A DNA stretch of 64,000 nucleotides, from assembly GCA_001464455.1 (NCBI GenBank), contig LNEI01000019.1, forward strand, positions 124,001-188,000, written 5' to 3'. The notes under the pieces are model-generated. The model had not been told where the DNA came from. It was given only the letters and a program-made list of their open reading frames with translations, and did no database searches. Within the stretch, counting starts at the first letter, position 1. Each line of letters starts with the position of its first letter. Shown in pieces: positions 20,814 to 41,102 of the stretch. This DNA comes from Acidobacteria bacterium Ga0077534. Its GTDB lineage: Bacteria; Acidobacteriota; Blastocatellia; Pyrinomonadales; Pyrinomonadaceae. The position numbers and the translations under genes are program-made.

Positions 20814-21152
20814 CTAACTTTTCGAAACACCATATGTCGAAATGATCTCAAAACAAGCATCAATGACTTCTTCTTTGTACCTACGATACAAATCATCAAG
20901 AATCTCGTCATAGCGTCTCAAAGCTTCCCTGCTACAGTTTAATCGCTCCGATCCGATTGGAACGGCAGAGCTTTCGGAATTGTAGGCTTTAAACACGGGA
21001 TAACTGACTTCCTCAAATTCCTGAAGCCAATTGATTCTGGCCTCCATTTTAAGGCAACCCAACGGCAGACCGACCTGATTCGAGATTATTGCCCGAGCGT
21101 TCGCTACAAGCTTATTCCTGTACGTTCGTTGTTTTTCTTCATTAGTGCCCAA
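20814..21152 (-). CDS. Small helical protein of unknown function (DUF2489-like?)
   Basis: 112 residues, overlapping the end of punA by 11 nt and ending 9 nt before udk, so it is translationally linked to the operon. The sequence is helical and charged: TYRNKLVANARAIISNQVG, EARINWLQEFEEVSYPVFKA, RRYDEILDDLYRRYKEEVID. The pattern ARAIISNQ-x-LPLGCLKM-x-NWL loosely recalls DUF2489 proteins, but I am not sure. There is no signal peptide or membrane span. A role in nucleoside metabolism is suggested only by position. Confidence 0.6.
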   Translation of the reverse strand: MGTNEEKQRTYRNKLVANARAIISNQVGLPLGCLKMEARINWLQEFEEVSYPVFKAYNSESSAVPIGSERLNCSREALRRYDEILDDLYRRYKEEVIDACFEIISTYGVSKS

Positions 21153-22002
21153 TTCTCTTTAGTATCCTTATAAGAAGCTCGTTAAAAACCTCAGCCACGC
21201 GAGCCCCTGTATCCATAACCTCATAGTGGTTGATCCCGCCTTCGACCATACCAGCCGCGAGATTGGTGATGCAGGAGATTCCGAGCGTTCGAATGCCCAT
21301 GTGCCTCGCGGCGATCGCTTCTGGAACCGTCGACATCCCAACAGCATCTGCCCCGAGCTGTCGATACATTCTTACCTCGCTCGGCGTTTCGTAAGTCGGG
21401 CCAGAAAGTGCACAGTAGATGCCGCGGTGGATGAAGTCGGTCAGTTCGGCATCCCGCCCTTTGTCAAACCTTTCGCGGGCTATCGATTCGGCTTCCTGAT
21501 GCGCGATCTCCTGAAACTCGCGATCGTAAACCTCGGTCATATCCGGGAATCGCGGCCCAAAACGCTCGTCGTTAGGCCCACGCAATGGGTTGACACCGAG
21601 GCAATTGAGGTGATCCGAAATGATCATCAAACTGCCGGGCGTCATGTCCGAATTTGTGCTGCCGGCGGCATTCGTCAAGATCAAATTCTTGACCCCGAGC
21701 AGTCCAAAGCTCCGTACCGGCAGCATAACTTGCTGCATGTCGTAGCCTTCGTAGTAATGAAAACGGCCCTGCTGCACCACCACGCCGACACCATCCAACT
21801 CGCCGATCACAAGCTGACCGGCATGGCCCTCGACTGTCGAACGAGCGAAACCAGGAATCTTTTCGTACGGAATGCGAACCGCATTCTTGATAGTCTCGGC
21901 AAACGCACCCAGCCCGCTGCCGAGCACGATCGCGGTGCTCAGCTCGGCTGCATAGTTACTTCTAATAAAATCAGCCGCCGCAGCGGCCTGTTCGTATGAC
22001 AT
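21142..22002 (-). CDS. punA: Purine-nucleoside phosphorylase (inosine/guanosine type)
   Basis: 286 residues, the trimeric class I size. It has IVLGSGLGAFAE (phosphate site), TVEGHAGQLVIGEL with QQGRFHYYEGYDM, LILTNAAGSTN, YCALSGPTYETPSEVRMYRQLGADAVGMSTVPEAIAARHMG (purine pocket) and GISCITNLAAGM with the specificity Asn. It cleaves inosine and guanosine with phosphate. It is the first gene of the salvage operon, divergent from yggS across 138 bp. Confidence 0.95.
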   Translation of the reverse strand: MSYEQAAAAADFIRSNYAAELSTAIVLGSGLGAFAETIKNAVRIPYEKIPGFARSTVEGHAGQLVIGELDGVGVVVQQGRFHYYEGYDMQQVMLPVRSFGLLGVKNLILTNAAGSTNSDMTPGSLMIISDHLNCLGVNPLRGPNDERFGPRFPDMTEVYDREFQEIAHQEAESIARERFDKGRDAELTDFIHRGIYCALSGPTYETPSEVRMYRQLGADAVGMSTVPEAIAARHMGIRTLGISCITNLAAGMVEGGINHYEVMDTGARVAEVFNELLIRILKRIGH

Positions 22003-34215: not shown

Positions 34216-34268
34216 CCCGCGGGCCGCGATCGCAACGGGCTTCAAACATTTTATGACGTAAAAAGTAT

Positions 34269-36074
34269 ATGAAAAAATGCCCGCAATGCGGTCGTGATTA
34301 CGACAACACAATGATGTTCTGTCTCGACGACGGGGCCGAGTTGCTCTACGGCCCGGCTTTGTCGGTACCACCTGCGGTAGCGGGTGGGGCTTTGTCCTCG
34401 GACGAAGGACCAGAGACCGCGATCTTGCACTCGACGGCTGCTCCGGGCGAAGCTCCGACTCGTGCGCTGATTCATACTACTGAGCAGACTGCAGTGTTGC
34501 CTCGCGGAGCGGAGGCGGAGCCTCGGGAATCTTTGGGTGGGCTTTCGGAGAAGCAGAGCTTCTCCGCAAATAGAGCGGCAAAGCCGCTTATCGCAGCGGT
34601 CGCGGCCGTGGTTCTCTTTATAGGAGCATTCGCAGGTTATCGATATTTCAGCATCGGTGGATCGGGGGCGATCAATTCTATTGCGGTGATGCCGTTTGAG
34701 AATAGGAATTCGGATGCTGATACGGATTATTTGTCTGATGGTTTGGCGGAATCGGTGATCTTTCGGTTGACGCAGATCCCTGATCTGAAGGTCAGCCCGA
34801 CGAGTTCGGTGATGCGTTACAAAGGAGCGTCGACTGATGTTGCCAAGATCGCTTCAGAACTTGGCGTAGATGCGGTAATGACCGGACGCCTTACCAAGCG
34901 GGGCGACAATCTGAACATCACGGTCGAGCTCGTGGATGCCCGCACCAACAAGTCGCTGTGGGGCGAACAGTACGAACGGAAACTTTCGGAATTATTGACC
35001 ACCCAACGTGAAATGGTCGCTGAGATCGTGAGCAAACTGCAACTAAAACTGTCGGGTGAAAGCGAGCAAAAGCTGGCCAAGAAATACACGGACAACAGCG
35101 AAGCCTATCAGCTTTATCTGCAAGGTCGTTTTCATTGGAACAAGCGAACTGCAGCTGAATTTGAAAAGGCGGTCGTGTTTTTCAAACAAGCCATCGAGAA
35201 AGATCCGAACTATGCTTTGGCACATAGCGGATTAGCCGATACTTATGGCTTGTTTCCTCGTTACGGCGATTTCCGACCAAAGGAATATATGCCGCAAGCC
35301 AAGGCAGCGGCGCTCAAGGCACTCGAACTTGACCCGAACTTGGCGGAAGCTCATACGTCGCTCGCACAAATCACTCTTTTTTATGAATATGACTTTACAG
35401 GTGCAGAAAAATCGTTCAAACGGGCGATCGAACTCGATCCGAATTACGCGACCGCTCATCAATGGTATGGACTCTTATTAACATACATTGGCAAAAACGA
35501 CGAGTCGGTTAGGGAAGCTAAGAAAGCTTTCGAACTCGACCCCTTTTCACTTAGAATCAACGCTGATTTGGCGACTTCTCTCGCAGTTGCCAATCGATTT
35601 GACGAAGCTCTGTTGCAGAACAAAAAACTTAACGCGCTATTTCCCGACGAAAGACGTTTTCGTGGGATAAACGGTAATATTTATACCGCTCAAGGCAAAT
35701 ACGATCAGGCGGTCGATGAATTGCTACTTAGTTTAACGGCAGATAAAGACTTCAAACCCGAAAATATTACCAGAATGAAAGAAGCCTACGGAAAAAACGG
35801 ATGGGATGGATTCCAGCGTATGTATGGGGAAATACTCCTCGAAGAACTGAATACCAAACAGGCAAAAGACCCCAACGGATATATCAGTGCCGGGGAGTTT
35901 GCCAACGCATACGCCTGGGGCAAAAACAAAGAGAAGACTATCGAATATCTGAACAAAGCCTATGACGAGCGTGACCGGAGGATGATGAACCTCAAGGCCG
36001 ATAAAACTTGGGACTTCGTGCGAGACGACCCGCGATTTAAGGAATTGGTCAAACGAGTCGGGATCCCGGAATAG
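34269..36074 (+). CDS. Zinc-ribbon / TolB-N-like / TPR membrane protein, paralogue 1
   Basis: 601 residues. The N-terminal zinc ribbon (CPQCGRDYDNTMMFCLDDG) is followed by a long linker and one membrane span (about 113-133, LIAAVAAVVLFIGAFAGY). A periplasmic FlgO/TolB-N-like domain follows (IAVMPFENRNSDADTDYLSD, ELGVDAVMTGRLTKRGDNL), then several TPRs from about residue 275 (AFELDPFSLR, RAIELDPNYATAH). This is the layout of receptor-kinase relatives lacking the kinase. It is about 70% like paralogue 2 (36503-38233). Unlike that copy, its linker holds several palindrome-derived insertions (34361-34566). Confidence 0.85.
   Translation: MKKCPQCGRDYDNTMMFCLDDGAELLYGPALSVPPAVAGGALSSDEGPETAILHSTAAPGEAPTRALIHTTEQTAVLPRGAEAEPRESLGGLSEKQSFSANRAAKPLIAAVAAVVLFIGAFAGYRYFSIGGSGAINSIAVMPFENRNSDADTDYLSDGLAESVIFRLTQIPDLKVSPTSSVMRYKGASTDVAKIASELGVDAVMTGRLTKRGDNLNITVELVDARTNKSLWGEQYERKLSELLTTQREMVAEIVSKLQLKLSGESEQKLAKKYTDNSEAYQLYLQGRFHWNKRTAAEFEKAVVFFKQAIEKDPNYALAHSGLADTYGLFPRYGDFRPKEYMPQAKAAALKALELDPNLAEAHTSLAQITLFYEYDFTGAEKSFKRAIELDPNYATAHQWYGLLLTYIGKNDESVREAKKAFELDPFSLRINADLATSLAVANRFDEALLQNKKLNALFPDERRFRGINGNIYTAQGKYDQAVDELLLSLTADKDFKPENITRMKEAYGKNGWDGFQRMYGEILLEELNTKQAKDPNGYISAGEFANAYAWGKNKEKTIEYLNKAYDERDRRMMNLKADKTWDFVRDDPRFKELVKRVGIPE
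34361..34566. repeat. Cluster of palindromic mini-sequences inside a coding region
   Basis: Four hairpins lie in the linker of the TPR gene: CCACCTGC-GGTA-GCGGGTGG (34368-34387), GTCCT/AGGAC (34394-34410), GAGGC-GGA-GCCTC (34512-34524) and CGGAGAAGC-AGA-GCTTCTCCG (34546-34566, perfect 9 bp). The equivalent linker of the paralogue at 36590-36740 is shorter and lacks them. Confidence 0.75.
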
Positions 36075-36502: not shown

Positions 36503-38233
36503 ATGAAACGATGCCCTGAATGCGGTAGAAATTACAACGACGATTCGATGAGTTTTTGTCTCGATGACGGCGCCGAACTGCTCTTCGGCCCGGCGTCGAT
36601 GGACGAGCCGGCGACGGCGATCTTGCACTCGACATCTGCTCCGGGCGAGGCTCCAACACGGGCGCAGATCCACTTGACAGACCAGACTGCGGTCTTGCCT
36701 GCAAGCACGAGCGATATTGCCCCTCAGCTTCGCGGTTTCGATAAACGTTTGCTGGCCGCTCCTTTTTTACTGGCGATCATCATCCTCGGCGGATTTTTCG
36801 GATATCGATACATCACGCCTGCTAAACAGATCGAATCCATCGCCATGATGCCGTTTGAGAATAGGAATTCTGATGCCGACACCGAGTACCTGTCCGATGG
36901 TCTGGCGGAATCGGTGATGAATCGTCTTTCGCAGCTGCCGGATCTAAAAGTTAGTCCGACGAGTTCAGTTTTTCGTTACAAAGGCAAGGATACCGATCCG
37001 CAAGTTATTGCCACAGAATTGGGAGTTGATGCGGTGATGACCGGACGAATCACCCAGCGAGGTGAAAATTTGACCATCAACGTTAATCTGGTCGATGCCC
37101 GCGTCAACAAGTTGCTGTGGGGCGAGCAGTATGAACGGAAACTTTCGGAATTGTTGACCACCCAACGCGAGATCGTCGCCGAGATCGTGAGCAAACTGCA
37201 ACTGAAACTGTCGGGCGAAAGCGAGCAAAAGCTGGCGAAGAAATACACCGACAACAACGAAGCCTATCAGCTTTATCTGCAAGGTCGTTACCATTGGAAC
37301 AAGCGGCAGATACCTGAATTTGAAAAAGCGATCGTGTTTTTCAAGCAAGCCATCGAAAAAGACCCGAACTACGCCCTGGCTTACAGCGGTTTAGCTGACA
37401 CTTACACTTTGTTTCCCGACTACGGTGATTTCAGACCGAAAGAATATTTGCCGCAAGGCAAGCAAGCGGCACTCAAGGCTCTCGAACTCGACCCGAATCT
37501 TGCCGAAGCCCACACATCGCTGGCACAAATCATTATGTTTTCTGATTATGACTTTGCAGGAGCGGAAAAGTCATTCAAACGGGCGATTGAACTCAATCCG
37601 AATTACGCAACCGCTCATCATTGGTATTCAAGACTATTATCATTCAGTGGCAGGCACGACGAAGCAATTAGAGAAATAACGAAAGCCGTTGAACTCGATC
37701 CGTTTTCATTGGCAATCAATGGTTCTATGGGACTTCAACTGCAATTAGCAGGACGATTTGACGAAGCACTTTTACAAAACAAGAAGGTCAATGAACTGCT
37801 TCCTAATGAAGCAGCATTTCATAGTTTCAACTATTATGTTTATGCGGCTCAAGGCAAATATGGTCAGGCTGCCGAAGAAGACCTACTCGCTGCGAAGGCA
37901 ACCAAGGATTTCAAACCCGAAAATATTACGAAATTGAAAGAAGCCTACGAAAAAGGCGGCTGGGACGGCTTGGGGCGGATGTGGCAGGAAATAACCATCA
38001 AAGAACTGAACGCCAAACAGGCAAAAGACCCCAACGGATATGTTAAAGCCATGGATTTTGCCTGGGCATATGCTTTGGGCAAAGACAAAGATAAGACGAT
38101 CGAATATCTGAACAAAGCGTATGACGAGCGTGACCTCAATTTGACCCAACTAAAGGTCGAAAATACTTGGGACTTCGTGCGAGACGACCCGCGATTTAAG
38201 GAATTGGTCAAACGAGTCGGGATCCCGGAATAG
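36503..38233 (+). CDS. Zinc-ribbon / TolB-N-like / TPR membrane protein, paralogue 2
   Basis: 576 residues, same plan as the gene at 34269. Zinc ribbon CPECGRNYNDDSMSFCLDDG, shorter linker, membrane span about 88-108 (LAAPFLLAIIILGGFFGYRY), FlgO/TolB-N-like domain (IAMMPFENRNSDADTEYLSD), then TPRs. The last 69 nt are identical to those of paralogue 1 (from the ACTTGGGACTTCG stretch to the stop), well above the overall similarity. This suggests gene conversion or recent duplication. Confidence 0.85.
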   Translation: MKRCPECGRNYNDDSMSFCLDDGAELLFGPASMDEPATAILHSTSAPGEAPTRAQIHLTDQTAVLPASTSDIAPQLRGFDKRLLAAPFLLAIIILGGFFGYRYITPAKQIESIAMMPFENRNSDADTEYLSDGLAESVMNRLSQLPDLKVSPTSSVFRYKGKDTDPQVIATELGVDAVMTGRITQRGENLTINVNLVDARVNKLLWGEQYERKLSELLTTQREIVAEIVSKLQLKLSGESEQKLAKKYTDNNEAYQLYLQGRYHWNKRQIPEFEKAIVFFKQAIEKDPNYALAYSGLADTYTLFPDYGDFRPKEYLPQGKQAALKALELDPNLAEAHTSLAQIIMFSDYDFAGAEKSFKRAIELNPNYATAHHWYSRLLSFSGRHDEAIREITKAVELDPFSLAINGSMGLQLQLAGRFDEALLQNKKVNELLPNEAAFHSFNYYVYAAQGKYGQAAEEDLLAAKATKDFKPENITKLKEAYEKGGWDGLGRMWQEITIKELNAKQAKDPNGYVKAMDFAWAYALGKDKDKTIEYLNKAYDERDLNLTQLKVENTWDFVRDDPRFKELVKRVGIPE

Positions 38234-40583: not shown

Positions 40584-41102
40584 ATGTTTGTCCGTATGGC
40601 GAACCGTAAGAAGCAGACCGCCCCGCTGGTATCCATAATCATGGGCAGTAAATCTGACTGGCCGACGATGGAGCACGCTGCGACCACACTTGACGATTTC
40701 GGCGTGGCCTACGAGTGCAAGATAGTCTCAGCCCACCGAACGCCCGATCTGCTTTTTGAGTTTGCAAAATCCGCTGAGGAACGCGGGATCGAGGTGATAA
40801 TTGCCGGAGCGGGCGGAGCTGCCCATTTGCCGGGAATGTGTGCATCGCAGACGATATTGCCGGTGCTAGGTGTGCCCGTTGAGAGCCGAGCTCTCAACGG
40901 CCTCGATTCCCTTCTTTCCATCGCACAGATGCCGGCGGGCATTCCAGTGGGAACTCTTGCCATAGGCGAGGCGGGGGCAAAGAATGCGGGCTTGCTAGCT
41001 GCGTCCATTCTATCGGGCTCTCGCCCGGAACTTCGCGAAAAGCTCAGGAAGTTTCGTTCAAAACAGACAAAAACCGTACTTAGCACAAAACTTCCGAAAT
41101 GA
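40584..41102 (+). CDS. purE: N5-carboxyaminoimidazole ribonucleotide mutase
   Basis: 172 residues from ATG 40584 with GAAG 7 nt upstream; ATG 40596 is also possible. Class I PurE motifs: [40 protein letters not shown] (active-site His) and [17 protein letters not shown], then [20 protein letters not shown]. It works with PurK in purine synthesis. An alkylation-repair gene is inserted between purE and purK, with both junctions overlapping. Confidence 0.96.

Follow-up and report, generated by a model that had tools for sequence, protein, structure and literature searches.

We propose that two of the short palindromes in the linker of a tetratricopeptide repeat (TPR) gene of the acidobacterium Ga0077534, which lies in a 64,000-nucleotide stretch of its genome (the window), are in-frame copies of two unrelated repeats of the repetitive extragenic palindrome (REP) type. 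On the reading that we hold to be highly probable, the first hairpin of the linker is a non-autonomous REP, here called family A, that is mobilised in trans by a Y1 transposase whose gene is bracketed by copies of the same element, and the fourth belongs to an unrelated family, D, with a canonical REP-associated tyrosine transposase (RAYT). The features concerned are, in window coordinates:

34269..36074, plus strand: host gene (TPR paralogue 1), 601 aa, with a zinc-ribbon-like N-terminus, a linker, a membrane span and TPR; TPR assigned by Pfam, ribbon and span read from the sequence.
34361..34387, plus strand: family A REP element in the host linker, tag GTCGGTA plus hairpin, encoding SVPPAVAGG in the host frame.
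34368..34387, plus strand: hairpin 1, stem CCACCTGC/GCGGGTGG of 8 bp including one G.T pair, loop GGTA.
34546..34587, plus strand: family D REP-like element of two adjacent hairpins, encoding EKQSFSANRAAK in the host frame.
34546..34566, plus strand: hairpin 4, stem CGGAGAAGC/GCTTCTCCG, a perfect 9 bp.
34574..34588, plus strand: fifth stem, AGCGGC/GCCGCT, 6 bp, the second hairpin of family D.

In our model, a small Y1 (HuH) transposase, with its gene framed by two inverted family A copies, probably moves hairpin 1 in trans. Judging from TnpA-REP and IS608, the enzyme would recognise the hairpin in single-stranded form, along with its unpaired 5' GTC tag, and would then cut and rejoin one strand, giving rise both to single REPs and to REPIN-like inverted pairs with their tags outward. 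As the unit offers open frames that specify short Pro/Ala/Gly-rich peptides, in-frame copies in loops and linkers would be tolerated, presumably being translated and nearly neutral, and would be inherited, while other, harmful intragenic copies would be lost. Hairpin 4 would be the same kind of element, a member of family D with its own RAYT, common to several congeneric TPR paralogues.

Family A is widely dispersed. Its 27-nt unit, GTCAGTACCACCTGCGGTAGCGGGTGG, is present with at most three mismatches in 61 copies (36 on one strand, 25 on the other) in the genome of Ga0077534, a 4.2-Mb, 32-contig assembly in which array copies at contig ends may be undercounted, and a reversed-pattern control gave 0 copies in the same genome. 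The window copy has one mismatch to this unit and its DNA folds at a predicted -8.1 kcal/mol. Copies are present in 32 of 60 genomes, Ga0077534 included; across the phylum they occur in 13 of 297 genomes (again with Ga0077534), all 13 within its own class, which contributes 32 of the 297, and in none of the 265 phylum genomes outside that class. For one host gene the nearest named relatives come from Pyrinomonadaceae, from Chloracidobacterium and from other Acidobacteriota assemblies, by which the class is probably Blastocatellia.

The aligned copies have a sharp edge of conservation at the GTC, with 0.34 bit at position -1 and 1.76 to 2.00 bits at positions 0 to 2, and the unpaired, conserved tag is present throughout, its G, T and C being kept in 59, 61 and 61 of the 61 copies. 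The full tag reads GTC[AG]GTA and not the GTAG of REP/RAYT systems; the base before GTC is mostly G (24) or T (19), and the tail GG has G in 50 and 47 copies. The stem is of 8 bp and the loop of 4 nt. Within an alignment of 34 copies chosen for their differences, which gave 29 distinct rows, the T.G pair is found in 27 rows and the first two stem pairs are C-G in 27 and 29; one two-sided change, from A-T to G-C, occurs in 9 rows, the other seven pairs being constant or nearly so, and both the paired cells and the covariation score lie above all 500 shuffles.

Of the 61 copies, 30 are arranged as 15 inverted pairs whose tags point outward, 52 to 87 nt apart from start to start, and seven stand in tandem, 66 nt apart (contigs C10, C18 and C31), with the same flanking unit also found at C1:70816, C2:49861 and C18:570609. 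Some of these 66-nt arrays (loci L030, L037 and L046; ends of C10 and C31) lie near contig ends, where the assembly may break. In another genome (G042, contig C167, 18008-18252), six family-A-like copies follow one another in a row at 43-44 nt spacing.

Many copies of family A lie inside genes and in frame. Each copy was matched to the open frames at its position, 20 host frames were compared with Pfam, and copies were counted as inside if they fall between or within recognised domains, or well within a domain-bearing frame. By this measure 24 of the 61 copies are in frame, at 18 sites in 16 domain-bearing genes, namely those for alpha-2-macroglobulin, MutS2, UvrA, PurH, DNA polymerase III alpha, methionyl-tRNA synthetase, an Mpl-like Mur ligase, an ABC exporter, an M1 aminopeptidase, an Eco57I-like methylase, a peptidyl-arginine deiminase and five TPR paralogues. 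The M1 aminopeptidase frame (L039:442-3690) accommodates five copies, spread over three sites, and has no stop through 1083 codons. The other 37 copies comprise 10 with the array unit, 2 at the transposase gene, some outside recognisable genes and some undecided, the last lying close to where ETF-QO, SDR and LutB genes begin, or in frames that have no known domain. Directly adjoining a family A copy in the Eco57I-like gene (L042, from about 1561) is another coding repeat, SPPYEGGVAAASADGVVLS.

Four of the six frames of the unit are open, and the two main frames used by its hosts give the short Pro/Ala/Gly-rich peptides SVPPAVAGG and PPATAGGTD. Among 12 single-copy sites, SVPPAVAGG or a near form occurs at 9, PPATAGG or a near form at 2 and VSTAC at 1. 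Over the four open frames the sites are spread unevenly, as 6, 2, 1 and 0 (chi-square p = 0.026), if the four TPR copies of C16 and C19 are taken as a single site; this leaves 9 sites, and the expected numbers are small. Furthermore, the start-to-start distance is 1 mod 3 in all six intragenic dimers compared with 2 of 7 outside genes (Fisher p = 0.021; two undecided dimers, also 1 mod 3, were left out, and two aminopeptidase dimers may be related), and therefore both halves of an intragenic dimer remain in an open frame.

These same peptides raise the question of whether the palindromes are a side effect of a protein motif conserved in the linker, with selection acting on SVPPAVAGG and EKQSFS rather than on mobile DNA. 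Both peptides do turn up again within the genus, in paralogous as well as orthologous TPR proteins, as such an explanation would have it, but the same DNA is found as exact copies outside recognisable genes as well as in unrelated proteins, and family A is read on either strand and in several frames, as SVPPAVAGG, as PPATAGGTD and once as VSTAC. As all positions of the unit are conserved, silent ones too, and transposase genes are bracketed by it, we consider selection for a protein motif highly improbable.

Comparison with solved structures and with orthologues places added residues at the elements. The Mur ligase has about 14 extra residues at the element relative to 3hn7, while between aligned blocks UvrA has about 29 relative to 2r6f and the ABC exporter about 28 relative to 6raf; the PurH linker is 39 residues longer than in 3zzm. 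For the exporter, 41 of 80 orthologous loci were aligned and 40 read, one with a long turn of its own (L295) being left out of the table. The turn has 4 or 6 residues in 35 of these 40 as against 33 residues in Ga0077534. One relative (L243) has PPAVAGG...PPATAGGSD in this turn, and four other orthologues also have long turns, of which three were identified as a different repeat; a TTEDTE-like insertion fills the turn in several assemblies (L236, L237 and L249).

The MutS2 of Ga0077534 has SVPPAVAGG...PPAIAGGT in the loop preceding the Walker A motif, and the corresponding loops of 29 other MutS2 proteins of the genus hold family-A-like peptides in 5 cases, SPPYEGG types in 4, RRKDAK/SSKDAK types in 2, RAVATG in 1 and none in 17. 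PurH has an A-like peptide in 1 and a SPPYEGG-type peptide in 3 of 21 sequences read, and the 15 TPR linkers read hold A-like peptides in 5, GAIATG-like in 4 and D-like in 8. These labels are peptide patterns, not DNA, written after the alignments had been viewed, and 8 PurH and 14 TPR sequences, whose bounds the script failed to place, are absent from these counts. The repeat SPPYEGGVAAASADGVVLS occupies the family A loops in MutS2 and PurH orthologues (L083, L085, L140 and L141). As judged from their peptides, then, orthologues carry empty sites, or what read as other repeat peptides, in the same loops. The original prediction of in-frame palindromic insertions thus stands for hairpins 1 and 4, which have dispersed copies as well as orthologues and paralogues without them, and falls for the two 5-bp stems that it had included.

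A further possibility is that the elements are kept for the function of their hairpins in mRNA or DNA, as terminators, stability determinants or sites for gyrase or host factors, their coding position being incidental. Roles of this kind have been proposed for REPs in the accessible part of PMC3733652, and the hairpins are indeed stable, the exporter dimer folding as single-stranded DNA at -41.2 kcal/mol against a shuffled mean of -15.6. Retention for such a function accords poorly, however, with copies that lie midway in long genes, on either strand, and with the many orthologues that do without them, and we regard it as quite unlikely.

How family A might move is suggested by the genes that it brackets. 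In one relative, pairs of family A copies 500 to 700 nt apart pointed to a Y1 protein encoded between inverted copies. Nineteen further stretches around weak PF01797 matches have the element beside the gene in 5, hence 6 of 20 with the first, and all six are bracketed on both sides if a copy with one changed tag base (L330) is accepted. A profile of these six Y1 proteins has three matches in Ga0077534, of which the best, C11:21053-21559, lies between a REP at 20999-21025 (plus strand) and another at 21581-21607 (minus strand). Thirty loci with a class-3-like Y1 match were scanned, five of the six founders among them; 8 are bracketed by family A, in Ga0077534 and seven relatives, and 2 by a CCGCC variant; with the variant brackets and L330 the total is 11 genes, and one bracketed gene (G030) has an internal stop. 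On a tree that leaves out four of the 30 loci (L359, L360, L371 and L374), where the script found no gene, the bracketed genes cluster, with 5 changes against a shuffled mean of 10.1 and 0 of 200 shuffles as low, without forming one clade. Genomes that have a bracketed gene also contain more REPs (Mann-Whitney p = 0.0012, kinship ignored and the variant-bracket genomes G023 and G026 counted as unbracketed).

The candidate transposase of Ga0077534, a protein of 169 residues encoded at C11:21053-21562, keeps N94, H95, H97, Y156 and Q161, which are invariant in 14 aligned proteins and make up the NHxH and Y....Q motifs. Neither NCBIfam Y1 family accepts it at its cut-off (21.6 against 80 bits for the RAYT family NF047646). 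Its AlphaFold model has a mean pLDDT of 79, with residues 22-42 of low confidence. Foldseek places the REP-transposase 4er8 and IS200/ISDra2 proteins (2f4f and 2xm3) at the top of 11 matches at E <= 0.001, and the model superposes on 2ec2 with a VIA Z of 13.4 (2.7 A over 104 residues) and on 4er8 with 9.8 (2.9 A over 117 residues). The predicted structure thus matches the REP-transposase/IS200-type Y1 fold.

Family A had at first appeared to be an orphan without a transposase, as none of 40 PF01797 loci (10 in Ga0077534 and the 30 best of eight relatives) was associated with it, and this was overturned by the class-3-like subgroup; the transposase of Ga0077534 had probably escaped notice since its 18.4 bits (E 0.0024) fall short of the Pfam cut-off of 23. 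The PF01797 genes near C27:248-251 kb were rejected as movers of family A, the nearest copy being about 3.2 kb off. A separate PF01797 gene (L050; C18:293815-294153) lies between GTAGCCCACGGCC hairpins in a GTAG-type arrangement that belongs neither to family A nor to family D. In a genome of another family of the class (G038, contig C70, 108008-108374), inverted family-A-like copies surround a short profile match at 108230-108343, and from its sequence this piece looks as if it were an internally deleted element.

Several points weigh against the mobilisation of family A in trans. Transposition, binding, cleavage and the peptides of the inserts are all inferred and none has been observed. Covariation is confined to a single pair, and neither the number of changed pairs nor that of pair types rises above the shuffles. 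No target-site duplication was apparent in the flanks of other copies that were read, no systematic test being made, and a 9-nt direct repeat, GGCTTTGTC, around the window copy was dismissed as one since it is not common to other copies. Twenty of the 30 class-3-like Y1 loci have no family A bracket, and the transposase profile finds no match in two REP-rich genomes, G008 (89 copies) and G036 (43), both 87% complete assemblies. The deiminase has only about 5 extra residues relative to 1xkn, the DnaE element aligns with a sequence of similar length in 5fku with no clear gap, and the PurH linkers of congeners without a recognised repeat already have 31-51 residues compared with 47 here, such that these three cases are weak and the argument is carried by the other hosts and by the transposase bracket. 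Both frame tests, moreover, rest on few and partly related cases.

To these must be added the TPR copies, of which those at C19:158361 and C16:157882, 159721 and 163277 occupy one site and were probably spread by gene duplication. It is conceivable that all copies in TPR genes derive from duplication or conversion among paralogues, with no insertion into this gene itself, and four paralogues in the same genome with family A at the same place, together with a close orthologue in G006 that bears both elements, favour such a history. It would account for the spread of the element among TPR genes but not for its origin, as 11 other domain-bearing genes carry family A and the same slot is filled by SEPPASAGG or SEPGAIATGF in other paralogues. 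We therefore give duplication a real, if lesser, chance for the copy in this gene.

Hairpin 4 fits the same general scheme, with mobilisation by a Y1 enzyme again the favoured explanation. The 42-nt family D unit (34546-34587) has 9 BLAST matches in Ga0077534 and matches in 34 of 37 genomes of the genus, its own included, so that for this hairpin, as for hairpin 1, the further genomic copies anticipated by the original prediction exist in number, in genes and between genes. Eight stretches were picked for a suitable spacing of family D copies, and in 5 of them (G013, G017, G009, G014 and G016) the copies bracket a Y1 gene; all three proteins tested among these five pass the REP_Tyr_transpos family NF047646 with 93.9, 90.0 and 83.0 bits against a cut-off of 80. 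No family D bracket around a transposase gene was found in Ga0077534, and the hairpins that flank its own RAYT gene (L059) were rejected as family D, BLAST of the D unit giving no match above 9 nt. D-like peptides are present in 4 of the 6 other TPR paralogues compared in this genome, and the hairpin-4 residues, EKQSFSANRAAKP and variants, in 8 of 15 congeneric TPR proteins that could be delimited (14 could not). Recurrence of the same residues in distant orthologues, which had been named beforehand as evidence against insertion, is thus seen only in this weak, congeneric form. From the sequences, it is probable that family D entered this linker before hairpin 1 did, or else that duplication carried it through the genus.

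The remaining hairpins of the linker and the comparison gene are as follows.

34394..34410, no strand assigned: hairpin 2, stem GTCCT/AGGAC, 5 bp, at chance level, no element.
34512..34524, no strand assigned: hairpin 3, stem GAGGC/GCCTC, 5 bp, at chance level, no element by itself.
36503..38233, plus strand: TPR paralogue 2, 576 aa, with a shorter linker without either element.

Perfect stems of at least 5 bp with a loop of 3-8 nt number three in the 206-nt linker, compared with a mean of 1.07 in codon-shuffled linkers (three or more in 7.3% of 2000 shuffles) and 1.12 in stretches sampled from the window (three or more in 3.9% of 155). About one 5-bp stem is thus expected per 206 nt, and hairpins 2 and 3 taken alone therefore need no explanation; we rule them out as inserted elements. 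The DNA of stem 2 is not kept in three C16 paralogues bearing hairpin 1, and stem 3 falls in the text EAEPRES, common to several congeners. A stem of at least 9 bp, on the other hand, arises in 0.6% of codon-shuffled linkers, and hairpins 1 and 4 each have one exact place in the window against shuffle means of 0.00 and 0.01. Stems 1 and 4 hence exceed chance, and both have dispersed genomic copies. All four predicted stems are present, the fourth a perfect 9 bp as claimed, though two are of chance level and the fifth, 6-bp stem had been overlooked; the claim that the paralogue 2 linker is shorter and free of these elements is borne out, as it has neither hairpin 1 nor hairpin 4.

Two further features of the window deserve mention. 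A perfect 11-bp stem, CCGTTGAGAGC/GCTCTCAACGG, at 40876-40900 is its sole other stem of at least 9 bp (loop 3-8 nt). Just 5' of the TPR gene, at 34216..34239 on the plus strand, lies a CCCGCGGGCCGCGATCGCAACGGG sequence (CCCG...CAACGGG) that resembles the DNA coding for SEPGAIATGF and SEPGAVATGF in the TPR linkers of relatives, and by this resemblance it possibly represents a third repeat family.

Our results bear on how coding palindromes come about. The most familiar examples come from Rickettsia, and the CGTC-tagged REPs, two Rickettsia families among them, are reported without a transposase in the accessible part of PMC3733652. In the present case a single 4.2-Mb genome has in-frame copies in genes for repair, translation, the cell wall and transport, along with an intact candidate transposase framed by the same GTC-tagged hairpin, and the origin of such insertions is therefore directly testable. 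A wider proposal, which we offer as speculative and rather unlikely, is that a class-3-like Y1 lineage made GTC-tagged coding palindromes generally (CGTC repeats, RPE-4 and RPE-6), the elements being selected to be translatable and the loops of core proteins serving as shared landing pads for competing repeat families. The loops of MutS2, PurH, the ABC exporter and the TPR proteins, with repeat peptides that differ by species, amount to a natural insertion-scanning of tolerant protein regions.

To our knowledge, the Rickettsia palindromic elements have no transposase. As described in the accessible text of PMC10969869, they share with family A the in-frame insertion of coding palindromes into unrelated, conserved genes, but are about 150 bp long, whereas family A is 27 nt, or 79 to 114 nt as dimers, and has a bracketed transposase. 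The original likening of the linker palindromes to Rickettsia elements was nonetheless apt, since RPE-6 and RPE-4 of Rickettsia conorii are CGTC-tagged REPs in the available part of Di Nocera 2013 (PMC3733652), a source that also describes intragenic REPs, REP-bearing uvrA and dnaE genes included. Family A and the CGTC-tagged REPs of that paper share a GTC-core unpaired tag, a predominance of inverted dimers and intragenic units, and the 8-bp stem and 4-nt loop of family A are those of CGTC-1 (the CGTC range being 8-9 bp and 4-5 nt). The tag of the CGTC group is CGTC, TGTC or CCTC; in family A GTC is constant and the base before it is not fixed. Other marks fail: CGTC REPs have complementary A-T at the first and second stem positions, which family A lacks; their unpaired tail fits CCA, in place of which family A has GG; and, in what is accessible of the paper, no bracketing transposase gene is given for any CGTC repeat, and Acidobacteria are absent from the five phyla listed for them. 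The A-T stem start, the CCA tail and the transposase gene thus exclude family A from the CGTC REPs as there described.

REPs in general are imperfect palindromes of 20-40 nt in many dispersed copies with an unpaired conserved tag at one end, as family A is. They are predominantly extragenic; of the 61 family A copies 24 were assigned to the inside of domain-bearing genes, the other 37 being outside, in array units, at the transposase gene or undecided. With the REP/RAYT systems (REPtrons and REPINs) family A shares a transposase gene enclosed by inverted REPs as well as REPs dispersed singly and in inverted pairs; family D conforms to these systems, with a canonical RAYT, while family A lacks the GTAG tag and its enzyme lies far below the RAYT cut-off. 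The TIRYTs of Acidobacteria (Di Nocera 2013, PMC3733652) are also Y1-type genes with flanking repeats, dispersed in one case, but their long terminal inverted repeats, unrelated to REPs, set them apart from family A by the description accessible to us. The class 3 TnpA-Y1 proteins of the 2018 HuH survey (PMC6006769) have in the text available, like the family A enzyme, NHxH and Y....Q motifs, a similar protein length, Acidobacteria hosts and flanking hairpins repeated in the genome; their 5' foot is CnGA, against GTCA in family A, the strand convention of that foot being unchecked, and the accessible text has no match for 'intragenic' or 'in-frame'. The transposase of Ga0077534 accordingly fits class 3 TnpA-Y1 by description, its flanking foot differing. 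Family A was not found in the open-licence literature, the only kind searchable, and apparently new are the family itself, the pairing of a GTC-tagged REP with a transposase of its own and the sharing of loops by unrelated repeats. By comparison with the accessible descriptions, family A is a new family of GTC-tagged REPs with a class-3-like transposase and not a member of the CGTC group.

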